The position numbers and the translations under genes were made by a program. 64,000 nt of DNA, taken from assembly GCA_028583605.1 (NCBI GenBank), contig CM053336.1, forward strand, positions 22,925,004 to 22,989,003, read 5' to 3'. The notes beneath the pieces were generated by a model, which did not search any database, was not told the origin of the DNA, and was given only the letters and a program-made list of their open reading frames with translations. Origin of the DNA: Dastarcus helophoroides (lineage: Eukaryota; Arthropoda; Insecta; Coleoptera; Bothrideridae). Below, one piece after another: positions 15,723 to 62,264 of this stretch; position 1 is the first letter of the stretch, and each line of letters starts with the position of its first letter.

Positions 15723-18700
15723 GTATGTATGCAAAACTTTTGTTTGCTTTAACGATGACAAAACATAAGGGATAGTATACGTTGAAATATGATACTAACA
15801 ATAACAGTGGTGGACTAAGCCTGTTAGAGGCCCGGGGCGGCAAAGCTAAATTAGGCCCCCCAGCTTTAAAAAAAAATGTAGTTTTACAAGCTTTTTATTC
15901 AGTTTACCTTTGTATGTATAAATAAGTGTTTATGTTTATTTCGTCAAAATCTGGCAAGTGAAATTTAAATTCGCCTTAAATTATTTAGTCTAAATAAACA
16001 TACATACCTACAATATGGAATGGATATGGGCGAGGAAAATAAAATACGAATCGATCGACAAAAAAAAATTAGATAAAATAAATCAAAGATAGATTTTTTA
16101 TTTTTTGTAGCGTGTTATATGTGTTTTCGTGCCTTCATTTTACTGAACTCCTCAATCACTTCTGTGAAATCGATTTCTTTCAATTTTTTTTTTATTGAAT
16201 GCACGGCTAGATTAACCAGTCGCTCTTGACCCACTGTAGATCAAAGATAATTTTTAATTAGTTTAAGTTTCGAAAAACTCCTCTCCCATGATGCAACCGA
16301 GATGCAAATGGTCAAGAAGTATTGAAGTATAAGAGATATACAAAGTAACGATTCTCTGAAGTCCCATTTTATTAAAAAATGAAAGATTTCTTGGCAGCAA
16401 CGTCCATACTCGTATCGGTGACTTTTACATGCCTGCGGTACCTTTTTAGGTCTTGGGAAACTTGCTCCTTGTCAAATTCACCATAAATTTGTATCAGATT
16501 GTCAACTGCTGCAGCCAGAGCGTCATCTGAAACTTCTAGCATAAACTTTGTTTCAATAATTTGGAAAATATTATTGATTTGTTTCATGACCCCGTATCGT
16601 GTCGACAATTCTTGTATAAATCGATATATGCATTCATACATTGACCGACGTATTTCTTCTTGAATTGATAATCCAGCATCATGAGCTGATTCACTTGGCA
16701 TCGTTCTTTTTACCTTCTTTCTTCCTTGTTTTTCGATGTTGATGTCCAGGTCATTGCATTTTTTTATGCCAAAAGTTACAGCATTGTCTACAATCGTGGT
16801 TCGTTCGGTAACTAAATACTCATTCAAGGCGTTTAGTTTGGTGATTCCTGTATCTAGAGTCATTTTTGGAGACTGCAAATATTGTTGAACTAAATTTACT
16901 TCCTCCAGTATAGAAAGCCAGAATTGAATATAGGTTAGAAAGGTAGAATCACAAACAGCCGGCAGGAGCAGACTTGCTCCTGATCTTGTATCTAGGTTTG
17001 CTTTTGTTGGATCTTGAAAATGTTCCAAGCTACTCACAATTGTCTCTTTGTTTTCTTTTACAACTTTTACTGACTTGTGTTGAGGGCTCCAGCGAGTATC
17101 CGATAAACGTTTTAAATTTTTTCCAGTTTTCTCTTTCAGAAATTGCCACCTCTATGTAGATGACGAAAAGAACGAATATAATTTCTTTACTGTTCCAAAA
17201 CACGTGACACTGGAAAGAACGCATGCAAATGCATGAACTTCACAAAGATTTAAGGAATGATTAGAACAAGTACTGAGCAATGCCTTTGAATTTACTTCTC
17301 GGATTTTATTTTGACATATCGTCAGCAGTTTTTCCAGACACTAAAAAAAACACAAGAAAGATTCTCGTACTTCCACTGTGTCATTCTCTATATGAACGAA
17401 TCTAATGACTTGACTCATTTGGTCTATTTTACCTTCGTCAGGAGTGCTGTCAAAAATGATTCCGTAATACTTAGCCTTTTTAATATGTGCAATAATGTTT
17501 TGCCTTACATGATCACCCAAACATTGAATAAATTCATTTTGTATACCTTTTGACAAATAACATGGTACTCTCTTTGACCCACCAGCAGCCTCTTCTAGTT
17601 TTAAGCGATGCTCTTTTAACACCTGATCATATTTCGCTAACAGTTGTACTAATTCTAGAAAATTTTCCGTGTTTTCCGAAGAAATATCTTCTTAGTGGCC
17701 TCGGGAGGCAAGATTTTGTTGGGCTAAGAATAGCGTTACATCTAAAAGGCAATATACAATGTTTCTGCATTTCTTAGTTTCATCGTTAAAATCTTCAAAT
17801 TATCTTTATCAATAATTTTATTAAGTTTCAAACCCATTGTTTTTCATTTTTCTAAGTTTGATAGATTTTCGTGAGACGATTTATGCTGTGATGTTCTTGG
17901 ATTTAATTTCCACCACTGACAAAACCAGAGACAAATTTATTAGTGTGATTGTCACCCTTAGATGCAAATAACCGGCAGCAGTAACAATATAATTTCTTTG
18001 TTAATGGAGAGTATAGTATCCATTTCCTTAAATATTTAGTCTCGTTTAAATGTGAGTAAAACCACTGCAAAGTTAAACAACGATGTTTCCCCTTAGTGCT
18101 TTCACCTGGTCTTTCTACAGATTTAAAAGGTCCGTCCTTGATTTGAAATATTTCGCTGCCCTTTTTGATAATCGAAATTCTGATATGCTTTGGCACAGGT
18201 ATTGGCCAATGTGCAGCATCATTGAATGATAAGAACTCTAACTTAGAAGCAACGTAGTCTTCGGCTTCCTCAGTATTTTTCTTTAATTTATTAGTTTTAT
18301 AGTCCTGTATTTCAGTGTCAGTCACGTCGGAGTTTTTATTAATATTACATTTAATAGACTTTTTAGCTATGTTTGCTGTTTCAATATCAATGATTTGTAT
18401 ATTAGATTCCGATTCAACAGTTTGATTAATTTTTTCGGCAACGCCACTTTTCTTCTCTTCAGAATTCGAAAGGTATTTGGATAAAGATCCAGGAAGCGAT
18501 TTTGCCTCTTCGGTCTTCGCTTTTTTTAGCTTCCTTTTCTGAGAGCCAGATGGTTGAATCATTTTCACTAAAAATAATGAGATAAATAAGAAACTTTTAT
18601 AGAAGATAGCTAAGTTACATAGACTAAAAAATTATTATTTGCATAAAAAACAATATTTTATGTGTTGGTTAAAGGAGAATATCTTTAAATTCCTTCAATT

Positions 18701-21700
18701 TTTTTTACAATTGTTGCAACCGCTAAATACAGCTCATGCATTTTACAAATGCGCCTTATCTTATTATTAGTGCAGTAAATTAACGATGTCATGAGCAGCG
18801 ATCGGAATAGGTAGACTATATAGCTAAACTTCTAGAAACCGACATAAATTGGAAACATCCTTACAACAATATTTTGATAAGCGGGTGTTCAATTCCCTAG
18901 TAAAAGTGCACTACAAATAAAATAAGGACTACTCGCGAAATGCAAGAACTGAAGCAATGTACTCGTAAGTGCATATTGACTAGAAACTACAATTATAATT
19001 TCTAGGCTAAATTATATGAACAATTACTTACGTTTTCCAAATACTCGAAAATGCACTCATTTACTTTTAAGCCGCAACAAAAATCAAAAACACTATTACT
19101 CTTTTTAATGAAATTACTTTAAACGGATAAGATCGCGTTTATTACTTTACAATTTGAAAAAAGGCTTATCCGTTTGCGAAAATATCAGAACGCACTAATA
19201 AACTATTAAATATCAACGTAATGAAATTTGATATATTTTAAATGAGGCCAATGTTTATTTTTTGACGTAAATAGAATGCAAATGTAGACGTACAAGAGTG
19301 AATTATCTGTACTTCATTGATTCAGGGATTTCTGGGAAAGTACTCGCTACAAAGACGGGAATTCCCCCAGCGTATTGGACGCATTCAGCAAAGTTAAAAG
19401 AATATTAGTACCGCGTAAAAAGACTGGATGGCTGCAGTGTTTTGATCTTGATGAAATTATGTAGGTACTAAGCACATTTTCAAAGTCTTCCCTGATAGCC
19501 AGGTTTTTACTACAAGATCTTGGACATCAGTAGTTGCATCAAACTTAACATCAAGTTTATGTTAAGTCGTAATTAAGTAATATTTGCATCTAAGTTAAAG
19601 ACAATGTGCAGTCGCAATTTGCAGTCAAGTTAACTACAAGACTTATAGTGAACTTGTCGGTTCCCGGTATTGTTCTTTCCTCATCTTGTCCTTTTACTTA
19701 TTTTTTTTATCTCCTGTGATGTTATTCTTGCAATCTTTAAAAACAAAGATGATGGAATATCTGCGTGCAAAAAATTCCGAACGTAACTACCCTCACGTTC
19801 GGATGTCCGGGTGGAGGGTGTGCCAGGGAATCCAAAATTAACGGAAAATTTTAATGTGCCACAGGCCAAGTCTCTTTCAAATAATTCATTTAAAATTAAG
19901 TTCTGCAACAATCGGGGGCTAGACTTAAATCTAAACTCGGTTCATCAACACATTCAAAATGAAAGACCACATGTGCCGTCCCTGACAGAAACCCAAGTCT
20001 CCCTATCCATCAATATGGTCCATTTGCCCTAATTACGACTTGCACACAACATTTCGACACAAGAGGAGAATTTGTGCTTTTGCGCAAAGCTGCATGTCCT
20101 GTCAACGACAAGAAGCACTGGAATCTGCTGATCATGATGTGATTTGGCTGAAAATTTTCTTCAAAAGCAAAGTTATATTTATTTGTTCACTTTATCTGTC
20201 TCCAAACGATCCCTCATACAGAGAGCTCTTCTCTTATCTCTCCGTAACTTTCGATCAACTATAGATGAATTATCCAAACGCTAAGGTTGTCTTTCTCGGT
20301 AACTTTAACGTACCCAACATCCCTAGGTTGAGGTTTTCTTCCAGAGCTGACGACGCGGGAAGGGTTGACAGACGCTTTCGCCATCACTTTTGGCCTATCG
20401 CAATTAGTTGAGGAATCCACAAGAATTCCTGATGTAGATCCTATCAACCTAATCTACTCGACCTTTTCCTTACAAATTCTTAAAATTCCTATAGAATCAC
20501 TGTGACATCACTGCTTGGAAATTATAATCACAAGCGTGTAGCAGCCTCTCGCTCCCTTTATATACCACCTTCTTCTCAGACACAGCCCCGTAGGGTTTGA
20601 TACTTTAACTCTGCAAACTGGGAAGAATTAAGAGACTTCTTTGCATCTTTCCCATGTCAAGAAGTCTGCTTTAACTTAGACAACCTTTTCTCAGTCGCCA
20701 AATCCATCACTGAAATTATCCTGGTTGGTATGCAATGCTCAATTCAGGTTTAACAAAAAATGTGCTTAAGCTGTCTCCTGTAAAACTCGCGCATATCGTC
20801 GTTTGAGAAATAATTTCTTGTGTTTTTATGTAAATAGGGTAACGCTGCACACAGCAAATTCAAAAGCCAAAACTACAGAGCGTTTATCATCCGGTTATTG
20901 GGCTTTAAAGTGTTTGCAATTATTTGTCAACTTTCCAAAATTTATCATCTATTGGTAATGAGTCATTACCAATAGCTGTTCGTTTATGGGTCTAAACTGT
21001 CGCGATTGTAAATATTTGTGTATTGCTATGCTTCAAAAATATTAACTTTTTTAGTATCATGGCAAATATGTAATATTTCTACCGTGTTTGCTCTCGTAAG
21101 TTTATGCTGTGCTTCTGATAGATGCTTTGCAAAATTTGATCCTTATTATTGATTGCAGACTGTAATTGTATTTTAAATTTTAGTTTGTTTCAACGATGGT
21201 AATTTGGTGGCAATATGGGTATATCTTCGACGACTTACTAGCCGATATAAACAAGATCTTATGGCCATGCAATCCTAGCATCATGAGTATATATTACAGG
21301 AATTATCAGTATAACTTCTTAGTTAGAATAATACTTATTTTGAACCTTCTTGTGGCTACAGGTTCCTTCCTTCTGTTTTTACCGACGAAAAGCAATAGCA
21401 GAGTACTGAGAAACATGATATACATTGAAATATTTGTGGAGCAATATCTCCCTAATTACTCAGAATTATTTCAGGTATTATGGTTACCCACCCTTACCTT
21501 AATATATCACGCAGTATTTTTGCCGTATTATGCGGTATATTACATCTCGAAAGGCATTCTTTTTGTAAGGCTACTGCGATTTTACTTGGAAAGTTTAACA
21601 CGCTGTAGAGAAAATGGGAAAATAAAATCAGTTTTGGTGGAATGTATCCAAAGGCATATCAAACTGAAAAGGTAAATAATATTATTTAAGATATGTAGGA

Positions 21701-24700: not shown

Positions 24701-27700
24701 TAACTTTTGTTATAAGGTAAATGTAGCTAAATTACCTTATTTTTATTTAAAAAGTCTACCATTGCTCTGTGTACCATTACTTATGGTATCCCCCGTATAT
24801 ATCTTCGATCCTTATTATTAAGAGTTCAACTCCAAACAAGAAAAAAATCTAAATTTGGTGATCTAACTGGAAATTGCTAAGACGATTCTAATTTCAAAAA
24901 CCTTTTTGTTTTCGAGTTGAATGTTGAAATTTGAGAAAGTACTCAATTTTATTTATGCATCCCAATAACAATTTATGATTTTAGGGCAGCAACTAAAGTT
25001 ATTAATAGGATAATTTTACCGATATTGTTGCAGCTGATATCAGGTATTGGAGTTGTCTATTTCTACGTATATTTGATATTTTTGGTAAGCAAAATTACGT
25101 CCTATTTTCTTCTATAGTATAGCTTTGGTGAGAAATTAAATTTAGTTTTCACAAAAATGTAGTCTTTATTTGAGACATTTTTATTTGATTTACTAGGTAA
25201 ATTTTTAGAAAATTTTTTCACTTGTTATTTTTTTAGTTCTTGCCATAACAAGTTATTTACTGAATTTAATTTTATTTTTAATTTACGTAATCTAAAAATA
25301 TGACAAAACTTGAACATTGCTTAGTTAAAAATTCAAAGTTGAAGTAAAAGAATTATAAGACAATATATTTTTTTTTTGATTTTCAGGAAGGTGTAAATAG
25401 AATAGGCTTATTTTGTGGTGGTTTGACTGTGATATTGGTCATTCTTATTTTGGCCAATATGGGACAACAGGTGGTCAACGTGGTCATTTGAAAAATGTTA
25501 TTAATATTGCAGGTTCTTTTTGATATCAAAAAAGAATACTATTTCGCTAACATTTTCAGGTTATAATTAAATTTTAGATTCTAAATTATACCTAATTAAT
25601 TAAAACACTATCCACAAAAACAAAGAATTGGCATTAGGAGTGTTTTTATAGTCTAAACAAGAAATTTGGGCCTTTTTCCCAATTGTTTGATTTTAGTTTC
25701 GAAATTTAACTTCAAATTTTAAAACTCAGAAAAAATAGAAATTCGGTTTTAAACTAGTTTAATAGTTTAATTTTCTCTAAAATTTGTGGATTTACAGTCA
25801 AAATTTTTCGCCTCAACTTTTAAAAGCTTAGCTTTAGAGATCTTAGTAAGGAGGTAAATAATTTTACCTTAAATTGGAAATTTTTCCTTGGTTTTTAAAT
25901 TATTTGGTTTTCAGCTTTCAGTGTTTGGTTTTGAAAAAAAATTTCCCAGAAATTCCAATATTCTTATAGTGTCGATATATAACTCGACAGTTCATGAAAA
26001 TGACGAAATGCAAGTAGAATGCAACATAGACTACAAATTTATGCAGCCTTCCAGGCGTGTATAGTGAATCATAGGTAGCTGAGCTACCACCAATAGAAAC
26101 ACTGTCACCTAGCGAAGCGATTGCTCTCTAGGAAAAAGTTCTCAGAAGACAAGGATTCGAATCTAATAAATTTTCAAGCCTATTGGTCTGTGCATTAAAA
26201 TGATAAAAATTTAAGCTTACGTTAGTTCACCGGTCGATTGCTTTTTTATAGGTTTTATTTAAATTTCTGTCCGATGTCACTAATGTGTCATTTACACTAG
26301 CAAGTAAAACTATCGCAAGTCTGAGAGTACTTCCAGCGAACTTGCGTAGGGTATACAGTAGGGTGGAGCGATTTTTAAAATTTTTTATTATTGCTTCGGA
26401 ATACCTGTAAAAAGTTGCTACTTTAGGTTAATATTAAACACAAGAAAAATCAGTTAGCTTATGCTGTTTTAAAAAAATTTAGGCAAATACTCAGAAAATC
26501 GCTAACATCTGATAAACGCTGAATAACGTCCTGAGCGATGTTATGTTACAGTTATTATCGGTAAAAACATGCGCGTTGAGACTTGTTGGCAGCAAGGCGC
26601 GGGGGAGGGGTATTTCGCTCTTGACACTCAAACACGGATCCAGTGATATTTAGTCATTTCGCGCGCTTAAAGCAGTTCAATTGTTTGCCGCCCATTTATT
26701 TGAAACATCGAGTTTTACAGCTGGGATCGAGGTATTTATTGTAAGTAGTATTTTTCACATTTTAGGCTTGCAGTTTAGTTCGTAATACTAGAGTATTTAT
26801 TTGCCTTGGTTACAGAAATATGTCTCAAGTTAAAACACGACAAGCGACGAGCTGTCCTGTCTTTGGTTTGCCGGAAAAGTTACCAGCATCGCAATTACCA
26901 ACTTATAATGATGTTATGAAGAATTATCTGTTCATAAGACATGAATTAAAGCCTGATAAAACAACAAAGGAGCCAACAGTTCGTAAAATATCTGAAAGAT
27001 GGCTTACGAAGTTATAAAAATATGGCAAAAATCGTCGCTGCCTACTGTGAGTGTAAAAAGAGTTCTACAACTGATTCATTCCTACCATGATAAATATAGA
27101 AGCTTAATGAAACCATATCAAGGCCGTCAGTCTAACATAAAATACCAAGAAAAGATTAATACATTTATATCAGAGTCTCATAGATTGTTTGATATTTGCA
27201 GTTGCAAATGCAAAGTTATCTGTAATTGTAACTGTGTAAAAGGTAGTCGCGTTCCCAAGGGGGAAGTAAGTTTCTTAATCGACCAAAGAACATATAGAAA
27301 AATGATGATAGGCGGTGTCGATGTGGTTGCAACTGTGAAGAATAAGAAAAAACAAGAAAGAAAAGAAAAAAAATTATCGCGTAAGAGAGAGGTAAACTAT
27401 TTTGACAAACCTTGTTGTTCTCGTTCTTTGACCGATGATTTTTCAATTGAAAGCAGCAGTTCATGCGATAGCTCACTCGTATTATCTTCTAGTTCTTACC
27501 ATGAAAACCAAGAACAGGTCAAACAAAAAGGTTCGCCACCTCAGAAAAAAAAAGGTTAAATTTACCATCATTAGCCCTTGCCTGTGATCGTACTGGAGTC
27601 TCCGATAGAGCCGCTGCTATTATAGCTTCTTCTGTCTTAGAAGATGTTGGCTTTAACTAAGGTCAGATCAACTTTACAAGAAGCGGACTGCAATAAAATG

Positions 27701-30700: not shown

Positions 30701-33700
30701 GAAGTTTTCTGAAAGTAGGTTTGCAAGTCGTACATGTGGAGGTAGAAATAGTCGTGTATGGTCAATAAATATATTCGTTTATTTGAAGAGCTGCCATGTG
30801 TAAAATTAAAGCGAAGTTTCTTATTTTATTACTGCACCATTATATGAAAAATAAAACTGAAGAAAAGTTAATACTTTTTGATTTATTTGAAAAAAACTAG
30901 AAAAAAATTGACTTTTTTTTGGATTTATATCGACAATTATGCAAGAAACTTTAAAAAATATTTTATTAAAGCACTTCCTCACAGAGGATTTAAAAATACT
31001 ACTAATTTAATTTATTCTTTGTATTAAACATCCCCACTACAACTAGCCTAATTTAAGATTCTTTTCTTGGATTTTTACAAATTTGGGAAGAGCTTTTTTT
31101 TCTAATTACATATGTATAGTCAAACACTTATAGGTTTATATGTAAAAGGGTTTATTTTATTAATTAAGCTAAAATTATTTATTAAAAATGCAAATAAAAA
31201 ATGGTTTCTTTCTAGAAAAGTATCGTACGTGGTTTTTATTTTTAAAATGCCATATACATAATCCTTGGATAATTTTAAATTTAAAAGTTTATATCAACAT
31301 AGCCCCGGAACCGCTTTGTTTTTAAAATGCAGTGTGCTGAGAATTAAGAAAAAATTGATTTTTTTATTAATTCTTTGACATCCCTTGAAATATTTTTTTA
31401 AATTTTGATATATTGTAACAAAATGTAATTATTAAGTTTAGTTAAGGAAATTTTCTAGAAAAATCTGGTAAGGGAAAGCGGCCGCGATAATGAAGCAAAT
31501 GGCAGATAAGCGCTGCAGAAATTTTGGCAAACGTTAGCCTTATATGCTTGATTTTTCTAGAACCCGAATCGGGATCTATATATAGGGGGGTCCGCTTGAC
31601 TTTCCCGCAGTCAGTTAATCAGCGTAGTCAGTTAGTGAGTTAGTAGTCAATAAATTAGTGGGTTAATTATTCAGTTTAGAAATAAAGTGGGTATAATTCA
31701 ACAAGTGTTAATAATCATTCGTACCGATAACGCGCAAAAACTGCTGTCAAAGTGGGATTATTTTTGTGAATTGTGCGGCGAAATATTGCGCTAGTGAATC
31801 GCGGCGATAATTAAATTTAGACTTTATCACGGACTCTTTAAACTGTTAAGTAGTTATACGAGGCGCATCAAGTAAAATCTTGAACATTCTAAAACGCTTT
31901 ATGGAAATGAGATTAAAATAGGTCAAAATGGAACACCAATTTCAAGCAATATTAGCAATGATAGAAGACAAAAACAACAAAGAACAAGACGAAGAACGAA
32001 GACGACAAGAAAAAGAACAGGAGGAAGAACGAAGATGACAAGAAAAAGAACAGGAAGAAGACGAAGACGACAAGAAGAAGAACGAAGACGACAAGAAAAA
32101 GAACAAGACGAAAAACGAAGACGATAAGAAAAAGAACAAGCTGAATAATGAAGACGACAAGAAAAAGAACAAGATGAAGAACGAAAACGACAAGAAAAAG
32201 AACAAGACGAAGAACGAAGACCATAAGAAAAAGAATAAGATGAAGAACAAAGACATCAAGAAAAAGAACAAGACGAAGAACGAAGACGACAGGAAAAACA
32301 ATAAGAAGATCAGAAAAGGAATGCAGACAAACAACAACAATTGCCTAGTCTATTAGTAAATATAACTGAAAAAATTGGAGTAGACGTTGCAAAAATGAGA
32401 AAAGAAATGCAAGAAGAGATTGGCGAAGTCAAAGGAGAAATTCAAGGAATGAAAGGAGAGATGGGCAAAGTCAGGAAAGAAATTGGAGAAGTAAAATAAG
32501 AATTCAATAACAAGCTTCTTGATTTAAACAAAGTAACACAAAAAAAGATCACCAACATCGAAAATGACATGACGAAGTTGCTAAGTGAAAAATTCACACA
32601 ACATGAATCCGAAAGTGTACCCGCTATCTCTTCCCAAAAAGTGAAACCTCCCACCTATGATGGACAAACATCTTTCGAGGCCTACAGGATACAGTTCGAA
32701 GCTGCTGCTAGGGCGAATAGGTGGACGAAAGGCAAAAAAGTGACTTCATCGGTGATAACCCTGCGCGGAAAAGCTCTGGAACTACTTCGAGGTCTATCTG
32801 ACTATGAAATAGCTAACTATGAAGATTAAGTTAGGGCTTTAGAGCTGAGATTTGGAGACAATCATTTGCCGCAAGTCGCCCAGTCACAGCTACTAGAAAG
32901 GAAGCAGAAAAGTGATGAAACGCTGCAAGAATTCAAAGCTGACGTAAAAAGACTGGCATACGCCGCCTATCCAACGGCACCAACTTAATTTCTGGAACTT
33001 TACACAGCTAGAATTTTCATAGAAGGAATAAGAGACCCAGAAATCCAGAGAGTGATGCGCTTGTCAAACTTCCGAACATCGAGAGAGGCACTGATTAGAG
33101 CTTTGAAGGTTGAAGCTGCTTACAAGGTTTCGAAGCAAGAAGCGTCACGTAGAAAAAGGAAAGCCGACATCGAAGGGGCCGCGTATAACCCTGATCTCGC
33201 GAACATCATAAGCGATAACATAAAGGAAACGAACGCGAATATAAATGCAAGCATGAAGAATATGGATGCGAGCATCCAAGAGCTGCTGGGAGCTGTTAAA
33301 GGTAGATCCAGCAGAAGCATAACATGTTACAGCTGTGGCAAACCAAAGCATTTCAAGAAGGACTGTAGATTAACTTCCAAGAAGTCGACAAGCCCCACAG
33401 TAAGAAAACAACACGGCAAGAAGGAGAACTCACTAGCTAATGTCAAGAAATCAGTCCCCAAAACTCTTCCCATCAAACAAATAAAAAGGACCAAGGAGAG
33501 TGTGGTGGTGGAAGTCAGCGTGGATGGAAGGAATGTACAGGCAACAGTGAAAACAGGAGTCAAGGTCACTGTGGCACGCGATACTCAAGCAATATGTAAC
33601 TGGCCAAGACCCAAAGATAAACAGGAGTTGAGGAACTACAGAAGACTTGTAAAAGGTTACGCCATCATCGCTGCGCCATTACACCGGCCAAGACCCAAAG

Positions 33701-39649: not shown

Positions 39650-40775
39650 TCGGATGAGAGAAAATTGTTAGTAAAATAGAAAATTTAATGAATGAATAAA
39701 GTTCATTTATTTCTATTTTGTTTTCGAAATTTTGTGTTAAACTTTAAATTTAGAACTTTATGAACTTAAACTTCAAATCTCGAGATAGAAAGTCTAATTT
39801 TAGTAATTAAAATGGATATAGATTTGGAAAAAAACAAAGAGTTAACACTTCGTTAAGGACAAAATTTTCGAAATAAGTAGGACTATCTAAACTTTCAAAA
39901 TTAACTTAAAGTTTGGATAAAACTAATAATATAAAAATTTTCTCCAAATTTTGACGAATGTTTTAGTTTAAATAAAAACAATATTTTGTCATTAAAGTGA
40001 ACCCTTTTGAAATTTTCATTTTATATTATTAATTTTAAGATTTTTTTTTGAAATGTTCATCTCATCTTAAAGTTTTGGTTTTAATTTGAAACAATCCAGA
40101 AAATAAGCTGGGAAATAGATAAAAATAATACAGTAAGTTAGATTTTCAAAATTATTTTTGCATTCAATTTCTGATGACCCAAGGATCATTCACTGCTACT
40201 AAGACGAAGTCGCTTGACCCTCCTTCACCCCCTAATCATGAAAACAATCCACCAAATGGGGCGTTTCTCTAAGAAATTCCGAAATTTGGAAAATTAACGC
40301 AAATTGTCTAGGAAATACATCCTAGAAGGTTATTTAGGTCGCTGATCACAAATCCGTGATTGCTTTTCCCGGAAAACTAAGTGCTTGTTAGTAGTAAAAT
40401 ATTTAATTAAAACTGTGTTCTGAAGGTTTCCGGGGTAGTTGATTAAGAATCCAAGATCTGTTTTTAGAAAAATTTATTTTCAGGTCGGAAGATCATTAGA
40501 ATTTTTTAATATCCTAGTGGTCTTGATTGGGTTTTGAGACAATATTATAAACCTTTTTTTGGAACTTGTGTCTTATGGTTTTTTTGGGTACCTGATCAAG
40601 AAGGCTTGCTTTTCCGAAAAGCTCATTTTCTGGTCGGAAAATCAAGAAAATTCCCCAACAAAAATTTGAACAGAAACTTGACATTTTAGGAAATTTTATT
40701 ATAAAAATTAAGAGTTTGTTTTTGGTGGAACGGACTGGTCCTTGGTTATTTCCAAAAATTGAAAACAAATCTAGT
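39650..40775. other. AT-rich spacer, nothing recognised
   Basis: Degenerate A/T words as at 36-38 kb; no gene family recognised. The open frame at 40514-40807 (minus) runs into the hairpin arm and is not credible. Confidence 0.45.
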
Positions 40776-40945
40776 CTTCTGAAACCAAGAAAGATTAAAA
40801 AACACAAGAAATGTTGTTCTAACGCGTTTCGCTAGCCAAGCTATCATTTTCAGAGCGATACTCTGAAAATGATAGCTTGGCTATCGAAACACGCTGAAGC
40901 AACCTTTGTTGTGTTTTGTAATCTTTCTTGGTTTCAGGCGACAAT
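40776..40945. repeat. Long hairpin, arms about 80 bp, 5-base loop
   Basis: The left arm (about 40776-40856) and right arm (about 40862-40945) are inverted copies with few mismatches, meeting at CAGAG-CGATA-CTCTG. Words in the arms include AAACCAAGAAAGATTA and AGCCAAGCTATCATTTTC. A direct repeat of the outer part of the right arm (GCAACCTTTGTTGTGTTTT, then TTTCTTG and TTTCAGG) recurs at about 41006-41045. Confidence 0.85.
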
Positions 40946-41639
40946 ATTTCTATTTAAGAGAGATGCTGTACAGTCGATATCTATCAGCTATCTAAACGCT
41001 GTAGAGCAACCTTTGTTGTGTTTTTTAATTTTTCTTGCTTTCAGGGGACAAGATTTATATTTTAACGAGTTTTTTTGAAATGTCAAGGTTTTTCTGAAAA
41101 TTATAAGTATGAATCGGAAATATTTATCGTTTTTTTTTCAAAAATTTCTATTCAGAATTCGAAGTGTTTTTTTTTTGTCAAAAGATCCCGATTTAGATTT
41201 TCAAAATTTAAAAGTTTTGAAGATTTTCTCGGATTCTTCATATGAAAAATAGATAAAATATTAACTTCTTCCTGTCGATATTTTTTTTCACATTTAGAGT
41301 TTTTATACAATTTTAAATGTTTGTTTTCGTTTTATAAAAACTTCAAATTTTAAACTCTAATAAAAACATTTTTAAAATTTCTTTTAAATTTTGCTTTTAG
41401 TCTTGAAATGTCAAGTTAAAAGTGTTCTGTATTAATATCAAGCTACTAATGTTATCGAGATATTTACGCAACGTTAAAAAGTTTCTACCCCAAAATGTAA
41501 ATTGGGTTTAAAAAAAAATAGGAGGATCATTTGCGCAGAAGAGCCTTCTGCATCGCAAACTACTCCGTTCAGTAGCTACGCCATTTTATTTTGACCATTC
41601 TACTTCAGTAGGAGGTAACGGATCAAATTGTGCTAATCC

Positions 41640-49612: not shown

Positions 49613-52600
49613 ATGTCGAAGATAAAAAATTTTCGAGAATTTTCAAGCAAAGTTTCAAGACTTTTCAAAACAGGTCTTTGTTTTTTTAAATAATTTAACG
49701 ATTTTGCCAATATACTGTTATTGCAGATGATCCTCTGCGAATTTGTAAATATATCTTCGTTGATTTGTATGATAATTCTATTGTATGCAAAGTAGCAGTC
49801 TATTACATTATATTACTTCAAATTATCAACATCTCAGTAACGGCTTTTGGTTTTCTAAAGACAAATAACTTTTATATACTGGTGACATATGGACCATTCT
49901 GTTTGGCAGAATTCTATGTATGTATCAGATGGATAATACATTGAACTAAAATATTAAACGTTAATAATCTCACACAAATAAAATAAATTAAATCCATTAT
50001 CAACAAAATGGGATACATGTGATGAATCAGTTTCTGCGTTTCATAGTCTCATCAAATAAAATATAGGCATGTTTAAATGTAAAGTCGTGTAAGAGCTAAA
50101 AGTACGAACCTTGCGACCCCAAAATTTAACTCAATATACAGGGCCGGATGCAGGGGCATCGGGGCCGGGGGCAGTGAAGAAAGTGGAGACCCTTTCAATA
50201 AATAAATATCGGTCGATATTTTTACTTGTACATAAAAAACAAATTGTCACTGTTAATATACTTAGATACGCCTAGTATTACACTTACATACTATTACACT
50301 TACATACTATGTTTGTAATTTTGTATTTCTTTTTAACGAGTAATGAGACCGATGTGTGATGAGAAACAATTGATGGATTTACTATATTTAAGTGAAAGAC
50401 ATTTTACGTGCTTTTTTAGAGGCAAAATCAGTAATGATTTCTCCGAAGTGCATTTCTCAAAGCAAATTACTCTCTATACTGAACAATGTCAGATACTCTA
50501 GATGTTTGTGCGCCATCGTCGTACGCAGCCTATATTTAATAATTTTTATTTTAGAAAATGTACGTTTACCTCTCTAGTTAGCCACTAACAACACTAAATG
50601 TAATTTCAATACTAGGGTATGCAGCAACGAAGCTATGATCAATTAGAATCCTGTAGTAAAACAACTCTTTTGGTTCACTGTTGACATTGTAGTCCTTCTT
50701 GAAGGTATCTATCAAGGCTACAAACTGGACAAATTCATTCCCAAGACTGATTTCCAGATGGTCATTATAAATTTTCACTAACTTGTCGGCAGCCTTGTGT
50801 AACTCCGTTAAACTCAAATCCTCTAAATGATTCAGGAAATCAAATCAATTGCAGATAACGTCATAAGCTCGAATTCTATCACTCAAAGATGGTGAATGCT
50901 AATTAATTACTGGAATAAATTTTTCTACTCGAAATTTTTCCTTGCTTGATAGCTGGGTATCTGAGGCTTTTGCATAATTCACTGGATCAAGCTTAACATT
51001 TATTGATCCAGAGCGTGTTTCAGTAAATTCATCGGTATGCAAGTAGAATGCAACCTAGACTACAAATTCATGCAGCCCTCCAGGCGTATATAGTGAATCA
51101 TAGGTAGCTGAACTACCAACAGTTGAAACACGTCCACCTATCGAAGCGGTTGCTCTCTAGGAAAGTTCCCAGAAGACAAGAATTCTAATATGCACAGACC
51201 CATAGGTTTGAACATTTATTAGATTCGAAGTTTGGAAACCAAATACCGGTTTCGATCTTGTTAGATCTCGTCAGTTTGGTATATCCAACTCGAATGCTAA
51301 CCAATGTTCCGACAAGTAAGTACTAACACATTCACAGATGTCAAGCGAGTGACTCTTAGTAGTACCATCTGTTGGTCCATAGAGAAAAGCCTGGAGGGCT
51401 GCATGAATTTGTAGTCTAGGTTGCATTCTACTTGCATACGACATTGTTGGCGATGGCCATAGTTTCTCGGTATTTGGTTTCCAAACTTCGAATCTAATAA
51501 ATGTTCAAACCTATTGGTCTGTGCATATTAGAATCCTTGTCTTCTGGGAACTTTTCTAAAGAGCAACCACTTTGCTAGATGGCAGTGTTTCAACTCTTGG
51601 TAGTTCAGCTACCTATGATTCACTATACACGCCTGGAGGGCTGTATGAATTTGTAGTCTAGGTTGCATTCTGCTTGCATACGACATTGTTGGCGATGGCC
51701 ATAGTTTCTCTCATAGGTGGTAGTACTAAGAGTCACTCGCTTGACGTCTGTGAATGTTTTAGTACTTACTTGTCGGAACATTGGTTAGCATTCGAGTTGG
51801 ATATACCAAACTGACGAGATCTAACAAGATCGAAACCGGTATTTGGTTTTCAAACTTCAAATCTAATAAATGTTCAAACCTATTGGTCTGTGCATATTAA
51901 AATTCATCGGTATTTAAATATTTTCGCGCTGCTTCTTCGTATTATTCAAATTTATCTCTACTGGACTCTACGAATAATCTGAGCGATTTAAGCTCTTCCA
52001 CTGCAGAAGAAAGGACCATTTTAGGAACCTGCAACATATTATTAGTAGCACTGAATAGCTCTAAGATATAGTTTCAAAATCCAGCTTATAGTGCTTCTTT
52101 TTTTAGAAGTCTATCAGTTTCGATTATGACGACGTCTTTCAGTTTTTGATCGTGCGATATGTTAGCGAGAGCTTTTTTAATTTTCTTGGATCCATGAACA
52201 ATAGCTCTTGTCGCATCAGCGGCGATAAGCCAACGAGTTTCACTCAAGACAACACTGACAATTTCTTAACCAAAAGCGAAAATCGCTCGGTAGTCGCTGT
52301 GAAAAATACATATAAATTTTGAACGAAATCGAAAAAATGAACAACACAAGAACAAGAATAAGCTGCAGCTTTGCCAACTAGGTTTAAAATATGGCAACAA
52401 CAAGTAACGAATATGGACAATTTATTCTTCTCCAAGATGAGAGCTTGTATTCTACTGTGCTTGGCACCCATGTTTGCTGTGTTGTCATACGAACACTCAT
52501 ATCGACTTTATGAGTGTCTAAAAATTTAAGCAGCGTTTTTGTCATATCAGCGTCGTTGTAACTACAATTTAGAATGAAAGAAGCAATAAATCTTTTCCTT

Positions 52601-55013
52601 GAAACAAGTCCTTCCATATACCGCAAAACCATTGTCAGTTGATTAATTTGTGCTTAGGCAGCTGTAGAATCAACTGATATTGAATGATATTTAGACAGTT
52701 TTATCCTCGCTATAATCTCATTAAGGACTCTTTCACAGATTAAAGCTATCAGCTCCTCACAGGTTGTAGATGAAAGATAATCGACGTAACCACTTCCTTT
52801 ACTTGCCTTTTTTTTTAAAATGAGTTAAGAAATGGTTCGTACTCTGCCAGCAATTCCAAAATAACCAGAAATTATCATTTCTCGATCAAACAGTTAATTT
52901 GTTATTACTTCTAAAAGCTTATCTTTGTTCTGCAATAAATATTATTGTACTGACAACTCGCATCAAAACTTTTCGCCCATATGGAGATTGCTCTGCTTCC
53001 TTTCTCGCTAAACTCTGCTCAATGCATTCCTGCTTCACTCCCAATTTTGCAAAAATTAATATAGCTTCTAGGGTTTTTTTTGAATTTTCGTGTTCAGAAG
53101 TACGTTCACATGCATGTTTCCAATCGTTCAACCCACCTCCACTGAGTTGATTTTTCCGAGTAGCTACTAATTTACATGCATTACAAGTAAACTTTGCTCT
53201 TGGTTGGAGGAAAGCAAAATCAAGAAAAAATTGAGGTCTTATTATTTTTATTTTTGGGACAAATAGATGCTTCGAGCATTTTCGGGTGAAGCTAAAATCA
53301 GTTTTTTTCAGAAGTTGAAACGATTTTTCAAAAAATTGTTCATCACAGTTGCAAAGACTACTGAAATCTTTATTGGCCCAAAAAGTTATAATTTGAGTCT
53401 AATCTGTGATATACGAAACACACGAAGTTTCACAAAAAGAAGTAGATAAATAAATGTAAGCGCAGTGGATTGAACTTTGAGTTTTTATTTTTATTTAACC
53501 ATGCGAGTAAAGACCGTCCGAAATCTCTGAATTTCTTTAGAAGAGTAAAAAACTGGTCACTAAGATTAAAAACAAAAGCATCACGTATTAACTAAGAGGT
53601 CTCTGTACTCTTTTATTACTTTGTACATATGTGGCCATTGTATACGTTTATGTTATTGGTATACCTTTCTAGCAGTCCATTTTTACCAATTCGTTTTTGG
53701 CAACATTCATAAATTTGGTAATTTGGACATTGTCTGGCAATGTGGAGATAAACTTTTTAAATTATGCGGATTATTGCCCTGGAGACCCACAAATTTTACA
53801 ATGGAAACTATTGAGAAACATTTAATTTGTAGTTGAGGAAAAGCAATATTCAAAATGGTCAATAATTTTTTATTAGCGTATTTTGCCTTTTTACTGTCTC
53901 TTTTAGCTCTTCGTTTTTGCCTGATTTCACATTTTTCTTATCTTTTTAGCTTATTTGATTGTGTCTAAAATTCAGTCTCTACTTATTACTCTCTTAAAAA
54001 TTAAAAAAAAATTATTGTTATAAAATTTTGAAATACAAGATTTGTCGAGGCCCTCAATGCTCAATGTGTGGGGGCCCCGGGGCTCTCGATATATCCGGCC
54101 CTGTCAATTTACAATGTTCAGGTTTCGCAAAGCATTTGAATTTGAGCGCGAGGTGTGTGAACGAGCGTTGTCATTAGAATCTGCTGCAGTAATCGACATT
54201 CGACTGAGTGTTTCATCTACTGTAATCACGAACTTTTATTATCAACCTATTTATTGTCTGAGAATGATAAGTCTCAGAAGGAGTCATTTATTTCAGTAGT
54301 TACAAATTCAGATATTTCCGCTTCTCAAAATACACTGACTGGAATACAACTACCTTAAACCTGTGCATTTATATAGTGTATTTTGAAGGTCATTTCCTTC
54401 GCCCTGTAGAAGCATGTGTGTATTACTTTTATACGACCCTCTTATTAATAATAAAGAAATGAGTTAAGCATTCACTATTTCCGTTTATTATTGATTGCAG
54501 ATTAAAATTCTGTTTTCAATTTCAGTTTGTTTCAACTATGGTAATTTGGTGGTATTTTCGATATATTTTCATCGAATTACTAGCAGATATAAACAGGATT
54601 ATTTGGCCGTGCAACTCTTCTAATATACGTATTTATTGCGAATATTACAAGTACTGCTTCTTCATTAGAAAAATACTCGTTCTCAACTTACTTATGGCTA
54701 CATGTGCATTTATGATATTTATACCGACGAAAAGCAATAAGCATGTAATAAGGAACATGATATATATTGAAATATTTGTACAACAATACTTCCCCAATTA
54801 TTTAAAATTAGTTCAGTTGTTGTGGATGCCAACGGTTATGTTAATATATCATGCCGTACTTTTGCCGTATTATGTGGTGTATCACATTACAAAGGGAATT
54901 CTTATCGTGAAGCTGATAAGATATTACTTAAAAAAATTAACGTACTGCAGGAAGAATAGCATAATAAAATCAACTTTGATGGAATGTATCCAAAAGCATA
55001 TTAAATTAAAAAG
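49613..55013 (+). CDS. OR2: odorant receptor paralogue, 5' part
   Basis: Three exons parallel OR1: 49613-49673 (starts MSKIKNFREFSSKVSRLF), 49727-49917 (191 bp, as in OR1) and 54526-55013 (488 bp, as in OR1). Splice sites are GT/AG with identical phases; the first intron is 53 bp and contains in-frame stops, so it must be spliced. By hand count 45 of 64 residues of exon 2 match OR1. TM1 to TM4 are covered. The third exon would read on to a stop at 55090 if not spliced, but the donor AAAAG/GTATTT matches OR1. Exons 4-7 were not found before 64000. They could lie beyond the window, as OR1 itself spans 24 kb, or be lost. The large intron holds a hAT element. The direct repeat of the gene pair suggests tandem duplication. 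Confidence 0.75.
49727..49917 (+). CDS. OR2 exon 2
   Basis: Encodes DPLRICKYIFVDLYDNS, TM1 (VYYIILLQIINISVTAF) and the TM2 start ILVTYGPFCLAEFY. The donor TAT/GTATGT is the same as in OR1. No stop or indel relative to OR1. Confidence 0.8.
51226..51294 (-). ncRNA. Hammerhead ribozyme, minus-strand copy
   Basis: The same motif on the other strand: core CUGACGA is the complement of 51268-51274, stem II and the AACA loop are the complement of 51254-51267, GAAAC-CGGUA the complement of 51244-51253, and the stem I strands the complement of 51238-51243 and 51275-51280. Every core and stem base is conserved relative to the plus copy, and the outer stem I is slightly better (CCAAAC retained). Confidence 0.8.
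51793..51858 (+). ncRNA. Hammerhead ribozyme, plus-strand copy
   Basis: The core C-U-G-A-C-G-A is at 51811-51817. Stem II is GATCT (51818-51822) with AGATC (51827-51831) around the loop AACA. The GAAA core is at 51832-51835. Stem III is the palindrome ACCGGT (51835-51840), so the last A of GAAA pairs with the U before the cleavage site; cleavage would follow A51841 (GUA). Stem I pairs ACCAAA (51805-51810) with TTTGGT (51842-51847), and an outer part pairs GTTGG with CCAAAC-like sequence across an internal loop (here TTCAAAC). All invariant core bases are present. A self-complementary 2-3 bp stem III is the kind reported for dimer-active hammerheads in Penelope-like elements and satellites. 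Confidence 0.8.
54526..55013 (+). CDS. OR2 exon 3
   Basis: The acceptor CAATTTCAG/TTTGTTTCAAC is conserved with OR1. Encodes MVIWWYFRYIF, LLADINRIIWPCN, TM3 (VLNLLMATCAFMIFIP), TM4 (LLWMPTVMLIYHAVLLPYY) and ECIQKHIKLK. Same length as the OR1 exon with no indel, which argues for selection on the coding frame. Confidence 0.8.
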
Positions 55014-55424
55014 GTATTTACAGATAAGGAAAATGTTTAACTGTCCATGTGGTACCACTATTTTTCCTGAGCAAGCTCGTTTCTTTATTTAATTTATTTG
55101 CCAATAAATACCAGAATGCCTCAGAGGGTACAAAACTGTGACTAAATCAACTCACTAAAAGAACATGTAGATAATTCAAATCGTAATAAAATTATTTTGT
55201 GCTGGTCCCAGTAATTAACACATCTAAGAGCGATGATGTAGTACTGAAATTTCTATTGGCTCTCCATTCAATTGGTTTGGTCGATGTAAGGAAATACCCA
55301 CCTGTTTATTCCATGACCTGCTTTCAATCTTAAATCACCCTATGGATAGTTAAAAATTTTCCTCACATGTATAATATTAAGTTAAGTTAAGTTATGTAGG
55401 AGGTAGAAACTACACTTCACTCGT

Positions 55425-55482
55425 TTAGAGGGAGGGCTGCATACTGCAGTCTAGGTTGCATTCTACTGCGCGTAGCAAAAGT
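55425..55482. repeat. Short fragment of the hammerhead repeat family
   Basis: GGAGGGCTGCAT and GCAGTCTAGGTTGCATTCTA match the family segment at 51393-51430. No ribozyme core. Confidence 0.6.
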
Positions 55483-56994: not shown

Positions 56995-58349
56995 TGTAAC
57001 AAAATGTAGTTATTGAATTGGTATTAGTAAGGAATTCTATAGAAAAAATTGATAATGGGAGGCGGCCGCGATAATGAATCATACGGCAGATAAGCGCTCT
57101 AAATGTTTCCGTAAGCGATAGGATTCCGTTTTAGAAAACAAGGAGCCTATAAATACGCGGTTGTCTTTCCCTCAGAAGTTAATTAAATAGTCAGTTGGTT
57201 AGTTAAGTTAGTTAATAAAACAGTAAGTTAGTTGGTTCGTTAGTTAGTTAATTAGTCAGTTGGTCAGTTAGTTAAGTGAATTATAATTACAGGGTTTCGA
57301 AATCAGTTTGGAAATAAAGTGTTACAATTCACGAAGTTTAAATTTTCGGCCGATAACGCGCAACAACTGGTGTGAGAAGCAAGATTAGTTTTGTAAATTG
57401 TGCTTTATTTCCCGGAGGAATTCGTGCGAGGTCCCGAAATATCGCGTTAGCGACTCGTAGCAATAATTAAGTTTGGACTTACGACGAACGTTATAAATTG
57501 AAAAATAGTTTATATGGGTCACGTCAAGAAAATTCATCATCATTCTAGAACGCTTTATGAAAATGAGATTAAAATCGGCCAAAATGGAACAACAATTGCA
57601 AGCAATATTAGCAATGATGAAAGACAAAGAGAAAAAGGAGAAAGAACATAGGCGACAAAAAAAAGATGAATAGGAAGAACAAAGACAACACGAAAAAGAA
57701 GAGGAGGGACAGAAAACGAATGCAGACAAACAGGAATTGCTTAGTCTATTAGCAAATATAACAGAAAAGATGGAAATAGACTTTGCAAAAGTAGAAGAAG
57801 AAATTTGAGGAATGAAAGATGAGATGGACGAAGTCAAAGGAGAAATTGGAGAAGTAAAAGTAGAAATTGCAGAAATAAAAGGAGCAAATTTAATAACAAG
57901 CTTCTTGATTTGAACAAAGCAACACAAAAAAATTAACAAAATCGAAAATGCCATGAAGAAGCTGCTAAGTGGACAATTTACACAATATGAATCCGCTATT
58001 TCTTCCCAAAAAGTAAAACATCCGATCTACGATGATAAAACATCCTTTCAGATCTACAGAAAACAGCTCGAAGTTATTGCTAGGGTTAATCGGTGGATGA
58101 AAAACAAAAAGGCGGCCTCATTGGTAGTATCCCTGCGCAGAGAAACTCTGGAACTACTTCTAACTCTATCTAATCATGAATAAGCTAACCATAAGGATCT
58201 ATCAGGGCTCTAGATTTGAGATTTAGAGACCACCATTTGCAGCAAGTTCTCTAGTCTCAACTACTAGTGAGAAGGTATAAAAGTGGTGAAACGCTGCAAG
58301 AATTCGACGCAGACGTGATAAGACTGGCCATATGTCGCCTACCCAAAAA
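56995..58349 (+). mobile_element. Truncated Gypsy element inserted in a LINE
   Basis: It begins with an LTR at 56995-57365 (TGTAACAAAATG start, GCGGCCGCGATAATGAAT block, TATA-like CTATAAATA near 57148, GATAACGCGCAACA end), continues with a leader and gag, and stops abruptly near 58349 where the LINE resumes. No pol and no 3' LTR are present. A tandem TTAGTTAGTTAG-rich stretch (57186-57275) is expanded compared with the other LTR copies. Confidence 0.8.
57584..58345 (+). pseudogene. gag remnant of truncated Gypsy element
   Basis: It starts MEQQLQAILAMMKDKEKKEK at 57584, closely like the gag at 31928 but without its tandem repeat expansion. It passes a stop at 57671, then ELLSLLANITEKMEIDFAK, a Glu/Lys-rich coiled-coil-like stretch, then SSQKVKHPIYDDKTSFQIYR and QLEVIARVNRWMK (58000-58105), the counterpart of the capsid block of the other copy. 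A GETLQEFDADVIRLA piece closes it. Stops at 57671, 57807 and 58180 and frameshifts are present. No zinc knuckle remains because the element is cut at 58349. Confidence 0.75.
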
Positions 58350-58985: not shown

Positions 58986-60029
58986 GGCCTTTGTAAATGA
59001 TAATCCCGCTAATAACACCTCAAACCCACCCAATTGAAAATTTTTAAGGACTACTATATAGCAAAGTGTACGATAAACAGCTGCAGCCAAAAAACAGAAA
59101 CAACTAACTGTTAGGTGTAAAAGTTTCGAAAAGATATGCAAAACTAATGTTTAGGCCGCTCAAATTCTGATGGTTGAAGTTCGCACAACATTACCCCACG
59201 TTGAACAGCACGGGCCCGTTCATTTGGTTTAAGCTGGTAATTGTGTTATTTACTAATCTGCTAATCGCACTTATTACAGAAAAATATGGTTAAGTGTTTT
59301 GTGCCAAAATTTTGAGACATAAACATAGGATATTTTGTTAGATAGGTTAGGCAATTCTTATTAGATTTTTTGAGTATGAAACTCAGAATTTTGCTATTTT
59401 TAAAATATTGCCACATTTTCACACAAAATATTTATATTTAATTTTAATATTTCGACGTTTTTCTTGAGATTTCAACTCAAAATATACTTCCTTTCTGCGA
59501 ATATTTGTAAGAATTAAGTGTTTTTATGAGGTTTTAGTTTATTAAAATTTAGCGTTTAACTAAACTGATAGTGCCTTTTTTCTAAAATGTATAATTGAAA
59601 TTAAAAATGTCAGTTGTTTTAAAGGCTTTGTACTTTTAAAGGAAAATAACGGAACCCTTATAATCTCACTCTCGTGTCTATCCCAAAAAGTTTGTCCCGA
59701 AAATGTTTCCTCAAAGACTATATAACGTAAAAATTTGAAATTTCGCATAGAGCTAGTTCTCGATAACCCAGGTAAACACCACCAGCCAGTGACTTGAAAA
59801 AGAAAATATTTTATAATAAAATGGGGGTTCATTTAATCTTCAAGAAATCAAGTTTTGGTTAATATATCGTGTGAGGTATCATTTGAAACAGCTAGCGTTA
59901 AGGATTTTAAAATATGTTTTTTTGATCCAATCGTCTTAAAGATACAGCTACAAATATGTTAGAAATGACCGTTCCCCCCTGTTTTCCTAGGTTTCTTAAG
60001 ATAAAATTTAAATTTTAATAGGGTTAGTA
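58986..60029. other. Spacer, nothing recognised
   Basis: No gene or element recognised. A 90-codon minus-strand frame at 59560-59832 has no known domain. Confidence 0.4.
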
Positions 60030-60453
60030 TACAGGGTGTTACAAAAGTCCGGGCCGCTACTTCAGGAGCATATTCTATACATTAAAATATGAAAAATATT
60101 GAAATACATTTTTTCTTTAAATTGCCTCCTAACGGAGATATGACCATTTAAAGATGGCGCCCCTAAAGTGGTTTTTTTACTACAAAAAGTTAACGGTTAG
60201 TAGCAAAGTCATGAAATTGGGCAAGCAGTTATAGAATTGGATTAGGCATATTCTCATGTAACATATTTTTTAAATAAGCAGTAGCGTGGTGTGTAGGGGG
60301 TTGCCCGCGATTATTTTTTGCCGTAACTTTTTTGTATTGCAATATTTCGACACAAAAGTGCCATAATCGTAAAAAGCAACATTTTTTATACAAAAAAGGT
60401 ACTCTTTCTCAAAGTCGCTAAAAGTAACCGTTTCCGAGAAAAAAGCGTTTAAA
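60030..60453. repeat. Left long inverted repeat of DD41D element
   Basis: Pairs with 61833-62262 in inverse orientation. Its inner end is GCGTTTAAA. Confidence 0.85.
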
Positions 60454-60670
60454 TAATCCTATCCCGTCTTCGAAATTCTAACTAATTTGTATAAGAAAAA
60501 ATAAGTTGGTCATGCAAACTGATCGTAAAGAAAACAATTGTACTTGACAATATTTGCCAGAGATTGACGTTGTGTCACTGATAAAATTTGGTCGTAAGCT
60601 GTAAACTTTAGCAGATTTTGTTGTCAATAGTAAGTGTAGTAGTTTTTTAACTTTTCATTATTTTGATAAA

Positions 60671-61732
60671 ATGGACTATTCAAATCAAGAAATGGCCGAT
60701 ATGCATTTAATGTACGGGCTTGCAAATTGTAATCGTGCTGAAGCAAGACGGCTTTATGCTGAACTAATAGACACCTACCAGGAGAAAAATTGTTCCAGAA
60801 AATTCATGCTCGTTTATGTGAAACAGGAAATTTTGTTTTCAAAGGCGAACTTGTTGGAAGGCCAAACGCAGAAGTTGCTAATTTAGAGGAGCGTGTGCTT
60901 CAGCGAGTTGAAGAAGATCCATGTGTCAGCACTAGACAACTTGCTTTAGCCGAAGGAGTAAATCACGTAACTATCTGGCGAATTTTGAAATTTTACCAAT
61001 TTTACCCCTATCATTTTCAAAGAGTGCAAGGGTTACTTGCTGCTGATTATCCTCCAAGAATAGAATTTTGCAACTGGCTATTGCATAAGATCGCTGAAAA
61101 TGAGAACTTTCCATCGCTCATATTATTTACGGACGAAGCGGGTTTTACCAGAAACGGGATACTTAACTTTCACAACATGCATCAGTGGCAAGTTGAAAAT
61201 CCCAATGCAGTTATTCAGTCGAGACATCAGCAACATTTTTCACTTAACATTTGGGGAGGAATAATAGGAGACTATAATTGGACCGTTTTTTTTACCTCAT
61301 AGGTTAACAGGAGCATCATATAGATATTTTTTGCAAACAGAGTTACCCGTGTTACTTGAAAATGTTCCACTCATAACAAGACAGCGAATGTGGATAATGC
61401 ACGATGGGGCACCTGCCCATTTTAGTGCAGTTGCTAGGGAATTTTTGAATAACAACTGTCATCAACGATGGATAGGTCGAGGAGGTCCGATACCATGGCC
61501 AGCTAGGTCTCCTGACCTCAACCCACTCGATTTCTACTTATGGGGACATCTAAAGCAGATCGTCTATTCCACACCAGTTGACAATATCAATGATCTTCGT
61601 GAACGAATTGAAAATGGGTTCAACCAGATTCACAATACACCAGGCATTTGCGAAAGAGTAAGGAGTTCCCTTAGAAGACGAGCCGAGCAATGTATTGCTG
61701 CAGGGGGCAGTAATTTCGAACACTTGCTTTGA
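60671..61732 (+). pseudogene. Mariner-superfamily transposase, DD41D, two frameshifts
   Basis: A cut-and-paste DDE transposase. It starts MDYSNQEMADMHLMYGLANC at 60671; a first frameshift lies in the A-run near 60785-60789, after which the frame reads LFQKIHARLCETGNF, a linker with VGRP, then a helix-turn-helix VSTRQLALAEGVNHVTIWRI. The first catalytic Asp is in FTDEAGF (about 61132). A second frameshift sits in the T8 run near 61288-61295. The second Asp is in HDGAPAHF (61403) and the third in SPDLNPLDFYLWG (61529); 41 residues lie between the last two, so DD41D, the spacing reported for the rosa-type lineage. It ends with FEHLL and TGA at 61730-61732, about 353 residues in all. Both breaks are in homopolymers, so sequencing error or recent decay are both possible. 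Confidence 0.9.
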
Positions 61733-61832
61733 TTTTTTTTTTCTTAATTTTGTACTATTTTTATATCAATGCAGTTAGTAGTGGATAAATTAGAAATTTG
61801 CAAAACGAATTCTAATAAATGCAACAATTTTG

Positions 61833-62262
61833 TTTAAACGCTTTTTTCTCGGAAACGACTTATTTACTTTTAGCGACTTTGAGAAAGAGTCCCTTTTTTG
61901 TATAAAAAATGTTGCTTTTTACGATTATGGCACTTTTGTGTCGAAATATTGCAATACAAAAAAGTTACGGCAAAAAATAATCGCGGGCAACCCCCTACAC
62001 ACCACGCTACTGCTTATTTAAAAAATATGTTACATGAGAATATGCCTAATCCAATTCTTTAACTGCTTGCCCAATTTCATGACTTTGCTACTAACCGTTA
62101 ACTTTTTGTAGTAAAAAAACCACTTTAGGGGCGCCATCCTTAAATGGTCATATCTCCGTTAGGAGGCAATTTAAAGAAAAAAATGTATTTCAACATTTTT
62201 CATATTTTAATGTGTAGAATATGCTCCTGAAGTAGCGACCCGGACTTTTGTAACACCCTGTA
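61833..62262. repeat. Right long inverted repeat of DD41D element
   Basis: Inverse copy of 60030-60453. A few single-base differences and small indels are visible, such as CATTTAAAGATGGCGCC on the left against CATTTAAGGATGGCGCC read inverted on the right. Confidence 0.85.
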
Positions 62263-62264
62263 TA

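Follow-up and report, generated by a model that had tools for sequence, protein, structure and literature searches.

A ribozyme-bearing, retrozyme-like element of the beetle Dastarcus helophoroides appears to insert head to head in the fashion of Penelope-like elements

The stretch of Dastarcus helophoroides DNA analyzed here (64 kb of contig CM053336.1, hereafter the window) carries, at 51039-51899, an insertion made of one inverted copy, a defective direct piece, a whole unit, and a 58-nt tail, all derived from one 369-nt unit. We number this unit from the first base past a predicted ribozyme cleavage site (u1 = 51473, u369 = 51841). The inverted copy (51039-51388, minus strand), delineated by blastn (336 nt, 18 mismatches) and by junction alignment, reads u243-369 over 51370-51244 and u1-209 over 51243-51035, with 51371-51388 alignable only loosely, to about u233-242. 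It abuts a plus-strand piece (51389-51472) in which u159-238 is joined to u365-369 and u239-364 is missing. There follow the complete direct unit, u1-369 (51473-51841, plus strand), set by a direct-repeat spacing of 369 nt, and the tail, u1-58 (51842-51899, plus strand), which forms the right end of the insertion and carries two changes (u9, u18) relative to the whole unit. The initial annotation had described tandem and inverted copies of a roughly 369-base unit, a description borne out by this spacing and by two inverted arms, one 214 nt long (93%) and the other 191 nt (96%), to which a direct pair of 80 nt (98%) can be added. The 51 nt common to both arms, u159-209, are identical, and the next unit differs from them at u172 and u200, as if both arms had been copied from one template stretch.

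The insertion is bounded by a 14-bp target site duplication, AAATTCATCGGTAT, present at 51025-51038 and 51900-51913 (plus strand); the two copies agree at 14/14 positions, a score reached by none of 2,000 random position pairs, which upholds the duplication as originally proposed. The last four bases of the left copy, GTAT, match the element too. When the block and one duplicate are removed, one minus-strand frame crosses the site with 6 stops in 240 codons; the other two frames have 25 and 21. Since 161 of 2,000 random 240-codon stretches have six or fewer stops, this frame argument is mild, and the target duplication is the main evidence of insertion. Pfam returned nothing for the joined flank peptide. 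The flank resembles 17.1-17.6 kb (E 8.5e-7 and 0.003); this similarity is located upstream of the insertion site and falls in the other two frames, which leaves ‘transposase-like’ as a tentative label for the flank. The unit itself has no long ORF, with a longest stop-to-stop frame of 53 residues when tripled, and a G+C content of 40.9%.

Each strand of the insertion carries one whole hammerhead ribozyme. The two cores, 43 nt each, are identical (51805-51847 on the plus strand and 51280-51238 on the minus strand, letters verified at both) and read ACCAAA-CTGACGA-GATCT-AACA-AGATC-GAA-ACCGGT-A-TTTGGT. Stem II has 5 bp (GATCT/AACA/AGATC) and inner stem I has 6 bp (ACCAAA/TTTGGT), with an A preceding the cleavage point, which is predicted to fall between 51841 and 51842 on the plus strand and between 51244 and 51243 on the minus strand. 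The invariant core, three stems, a NUH cleavage site, closed stems II and III, and an open stem I mark the ribozyme as type I. Every feature that the initial annotation listed for two complete hammerheads is present at both sites. Its phrase ‘one per strand’ is correct as a count, and what it describes is an inverted copy of one unit rather than a design of two polarities.

A covariance search, which had been suggested for the window, gave Rfam RF02275 (Hammerhead_HH9) as the best match, with both sites spanning all 77 model positions and five positions of the stem III loop deleted. The plus-strand site scored 32.9 bits (E 3.6e-6, over 51793-51864) and the minus-strand site 34.4 bits (E 1.2e-6, over 51292-51221), both E values being computed for a search space of 1,101 bases. 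Because these scores lie under the HH9 gathering score of 52 bits, a search of the whole window at gathering scores listed no family. A stem-checked hammerhead descriptor matched at these two sites only within the window and at no site in 100 simulated windows drawn from a first-order Markov model of the window. We regard the self-cleavage of both hammerheads as putative, judged by fold energies. Within one molecule, stem III amounts to a single A-U pair capped by a palindromic CCGG loop, whereas between two copies it comprises six pairs, ACCGGU/ACCGGU. The 47-nt core gives -24.7 kcal/mol for the dimeric hammerhead and -25.0 for the most stable dimer fold, whereas its most stable monomer fold pairs core bases away and is not a hammerhead; a dimeric form is plausible in these models.

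The evidence for conservation of the ribozyme is mixed at the sequence level. Comparing the inverted copy with the whole direct unit, 0 of 18 differences fall within the ribozyme span (p 0.013), and the real 3' side of the plus-strand ribozyme carries two changes. When the insertion is folded as a whole to minimum energy, the plus-strand ribozyme pairs locally with its core misfolded, and we make no firm claim that the inverted arms occlude it. The initial annotation also expected a 369-nt monomer if the first plus-strand site (51468-51472) were whole. The tandem 369-nt spacing is there, but the upstream direct copy has no catalytic part (u239-364 missing); the substrate half is kept, and a monomer can be envisaged, in line with that expectation. 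This half and the catalytic half downstream fold together into a hammerhead at -12.6 to -12.8 kcal/mol, compared with -16.0 for the whole site, and with two more bases another fold wins at -13.5. We accordingly dropped the statement that the locus is unable to release a 369-nt monomer: release of such an RNA from the plus strand is conceivable on these energies.

A second insertion, without a ribozyme, lies at 26008-26195 (copy 2; the 51039-51899 insertion is copy 1). It was recognized by blastn (87% over 155 nt, 95% over 40 nt) and by alignment, and it joins antisense u207-55 (26008-26162) head to head with sense u15-54 (26156-26195), the overlap of the two arms marking junction bases common to both. 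By blastn, the window holds these two insertions plus a short fragment. The fragment, at 55431-55467 (plus strand; copy 3), matches u163-202 at 80% over 40 nt, ends near the left-end site, and is perhaps a third, heavily truncated insertion. Comparing the flanks of the three copies with one another by blastn gave no match at E 0.01, and a shared segmental duplication as the origin of both insertions was rejected on this ground. The target duplication of copy 2 is weak: its best alignment, 10/11 including element bases, is equalled or bettered by 19 of 2,000 random pairs, and the form without element bases, 10/12, is equalled by 49 of 997.

The outer ends of copies 1 and 2 are nearly the same, and their inner junctions differ. 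Copy 1 ends at u205-209 (four bases being common with the target) and u58, and copy 2, judged by ungapped similarity, at u207 and u54. For random ends on a 369-nt circle, the chance of such agreement is about 1.6e-4 (within 2 nt) to 6e-4 (within 4 nt); a gapped alignment carries the left end of copy 2 to about u215, which would loosen the left-end agreement to some 6-10 nt. The two end sites, separated by about 151 nt, are situated some 54-58 and 205-209 nt beyond the cleavage site rather than at it. Ends unrelated to the cleavage site had been named in advance as refuting the proposal, and this outcome is found here in part. TGCAT ends at u54, u174, u196, and u207 once u172 and u200 of the unit take their sister-copy states, and both common insertion ends adjoin it, a post hoc observation on a motif with four occurrences in the unit. 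Loss of the center of a copy-1-like structure could have given copy 2; at the 13 informative sites of the copy 2 inverted arm, 7 agree with the inverted arm of copy 1 and 6 with the direct unit, a split that is mildly against it.

The window has further repeats. Direct-orientation recurrences 25-34 kb apart, at about 60-82% identity, pair 15451-18631 with 49646-53400, 21143-21442 with 54485-54784, and 31422-32957 with 57006-58328, and reflect an old tandem duplication or related genes. They include a repeat-rich block and an ORF (54463-55092) that we take to be odorant-receptor-like, for which no homologue was found at E 0.001 and no Pfam family at E 1; this resemblance, with the mix of transposons, is a weak indication of an insect-like host. 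At 31951-32342, a 33-bp (11-codon) unit is repeated in tandem about nine times, and a weaker relative lies at 57634. Two ORFs at 60028-62264 are flanked by nearly perfect inverted repeats (319 nt at 99%, 94 nt at 94%), and one of them matches DDE_3 weakly, below cut-off; judged by these features, the segment is probably a transposon of mariner-like type whose terminal inverted repeats are long. Another inverted pair (40759-41069; 97-nt arms, 84%, 5 nt apart) adjoins a direct repeat of the same sequence, and this head-to-head repeat is unrelated to copy 1 as far as checked.

Beyond the window, an IMG/VR scan yielded 14 loci with the ribozyme pattern and 20 with a 19-base segment of the unit, and all 34 were dropped: with the unit as blastn query, the 14 gave no match at E 1 or less, and alignments to the 20 cover only 19-21 bases, 19 of these loci having one common unrelated context, presumably a phage gene. 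A scan of a bacterial and archaeal genome collection gave 0 matches.

Animal retrozymes are ribozyme-bearing, protein-less elements of 170-400 nt, according to the available portion of PMC7229834, in which Penelope-like elements (PLEs) are considered a strong candidate helper. The 369-nt unit, with its type I hammerhead, its size within about 170-400 nt, G+C below 50%, and no long ORF, resembles the animal non-LTR retrozymes of that account, as does the target duplication of more than 4 bp, clear in copy 1 (14/14) and weak in copy 2. Characteristic of such retrozymes as well are tandem copies that all bear a hammerhead, abundant RNAs in linear and circular form, and many copies per genome. Similarly, the axolotl HHR_Amex1, as presented there, has a one-pair stem III with a palindromic tetraloop as its cap, like the ribozyme described here, and cuts better as a dimer. 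In contrast to these retrozymes, the beetle element has two head-to-head insertions with near-identical ends; the word ‘inverted’ does not occur in PMC7229834, and no report of head-to-head retrozyme insertions was found in the literature searched, which took in a minority of subscription papers. Another insect tandem repeat with a hammerhead, the pDo500 satellite of Dolichopoda cave crickets, also has a proposed dimeric form, but, in the accessible text of PMC2837043, its stem III forms inside a single strand in the dimer too, unlike that of copy 1, and no insertion structure is described.

The layout of copy 1, i.e., direct copies and an adjacent head-to-head inverted copy within a target duplication, is that of PLEs. 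In the part of PMC3846280 at hand, the PLEs of Adineta vaga typically have two direct pLTRs plus an adjacent inverted pLTR, most commonly head to head, with duplications of 8-10 bp and some copies without any. Pen2a from that source is alike in its direct and head-to-head inverted copies and in a duplication of about 8-14 bp; it differs from the 51039-51899 element, which has no reverse transcriptase or GIY-YIG ORF and whose end sites are about 151 nt apart, compared with a 31-bp tail in Pen2a. A biochemical parallel is Poseidon PLE PAc of Anolis carolinensis (PMC11167929), which has a hammerhead beside internal reverse-transcription initiation sites and whose purified protein cuts and extends both target strands in vitro, starting at two internal RNA sites. 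PAc, in contrast to the beetle element, is autonomous, with sites that are adjacent and not homologous to the target.

On balance, we consider it somewhat more probable than otherwise that 51039-51899 is a non-autonomous, ribozyme-bearing animal (non-LTR) retrozyme-type insertion with a 369-nt monomer, moved by PLE-type machinery. The Rfam match, the duplication, the 53-residue longest frame, and the second copy in the window sustain the original proposal of a short, ribozyme-bearing non-autonomous retroelement. Its hint at Penelope was drawn from stem III, and the insertion layout, from which we infer a PLE helper, is better evidence. A linked PLE reverse transcriptase, which had been proposed as a check, did not emerge: the unit has no PLE-type ORF (telomerase-like reverse transcriptase plus GIY-YIG endonuclease), a GIY-YIG-like regular expression found nothing over the 64-kb window, and Pfam, applied to 10 of the 13 window ORFs of at least 150 residues, returned one RVT_1 domain, read as LINE-type. 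Thus, the element is best filed as retrozyme-like and appears to insert PLE-fashion, with most testable retrozyme features present and the PLE protein missing.

Insertion may be rationalized as follows. Tandem source copies would be transcribed, and the type I hammerhead, probably dimerized via ACCGGU/ACCGGU, would cut after GUA. The cleavage junction is passed intact in both orientations (51841/51842 and 51244/51243), so the RNA copied into the site was uncut or religated there. A reverse transcriptase acting in trans, most likely PLE-type, would open the target with a 14-bp stagger and prime from both DNA ends at two preferred RNA positions. The bottom-strand end would start at about u54-58 and copy a multimeric or circular RNA; the top-strand end would start at about u205-209. 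Head-to-head joining of both cDNAs, in a presumed order of steps, would then give the inverted arm plus direct copies seen at the locus. Two-ended priming would leave the outer ends fixed and the inner junction variable, as in copies 1 and 2, and the near-coincident ends of the two insertions are consistent with reverse transcription starting at internal sites. Within the first direct piece, the discontinuity between u238 and u365 may be a template jump or a defect of the source.

Other origins can be weighed against the same features. If the block were a palindromic non-autonomous DNA element or a rearranged satellite, the head-to-head unit would be fixed and the ribozyme a passenger; the common outer ends, with ATGCA/TGCAT at both as a tiny terminal inverted repeat, agree with this, yet the inner junctions are unlike between copies and the 7 versus 6 split reveals no arm-by-arm descent, making such an origin very improbable. 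LINE machinery is a more substantial, though still improbable, mover. A twin-primed LINE product has an inverted 5' segment, a poly(A) or LINE-derived 3' tail, and variable inversion points, and L1 enzymes prefer TTTT/AA. On that account, the head-to-head shape would be ordinary twin priming with 5' inversion at chance annealing positions: LINE-type endonuclease and reverse transcriptase ORFs occur within the window, the nicked strand of copy 1 would read ATTT/AC, loosely resembling the L1 site, and the GTAT that copy 1 has in common with its target at the left end is expected of annealing. Inversion is present, but the right ends have no poly(A) or LINE tail, and both insertions are inverted with nearly coincident outer ends, which chance positions do not predict.

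Another candidate origin is an autonomous PLE of the host that left a deletion derivative or solo terminal repeats here, the 369-nt unit then being a PLE terminal repeat whose coding part was lost. In the available parts of PMC7761336 and PMC3846280, PLE terminal repeats have minimal hammerheads (little or no stem III) and such a layout, and the latter reports solo pLTRs around unrelated DNA. We nonetheless hold this origin to be rather unlikely: no frame in the unit exceeds 53 residues, none exits the ribozyme, unlike the lizard PLE with its ORF starting at stem II (PMC11167929), and both size and 41% G+C agree with retrozymes. The preferred reading of a PLE-moved retrozyme has difficulties of its own. 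Clear insertions number two, the left end of copy 2 is ambiguous, and its target duplication is weak. As for a PLE tail signature, the ends of the two insertions are close, but the sites are about 151 nt apart, whereas those of the lizard PLE are adjacent (tail 30-40 bp), and its enzyme starts without target homology, unlike the left end of copy 1 with its shared GTAT. The authors of PMC3846280, in the text accessible, favored self-priming on an antisense RNA template, not two-sided priming, for the head-to-head PLE copies of Adineta vaga.

What is new here is a second, ribozyme-less insertion at 26008-26195, also head to head, with nearly the same unit ends and unrelated flanks. A ribozyme-only element with two insertions, a PLE-style head-to-head layout, and near-same ends turns a guess at the helper into something that a count of ends within one genome can test, and the insertions, by their shape, hint at the copying machinery that moves ribozyme elements in animals. 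More generally, we advance only tentatively, at less than even confidence, the idea that PLE enzymes mobilize animal retrozymes by priming on both sides of the target at a pair of preferred UGCAU sites in multimeric or circular RNA, so that insertions are born head to head and their scar identifies the helper. If true, these insertions would exemplify in nature the priming from both DNA strands that has so far been shown with a PLE enzyme in vitro, and the head-to-head scar would name the helper of ribozyme elements, for which the accessible portion of PMC7761336 sees no conserved motif in animal retrozyme repeats from which a helper retrotransposon could be deduced.
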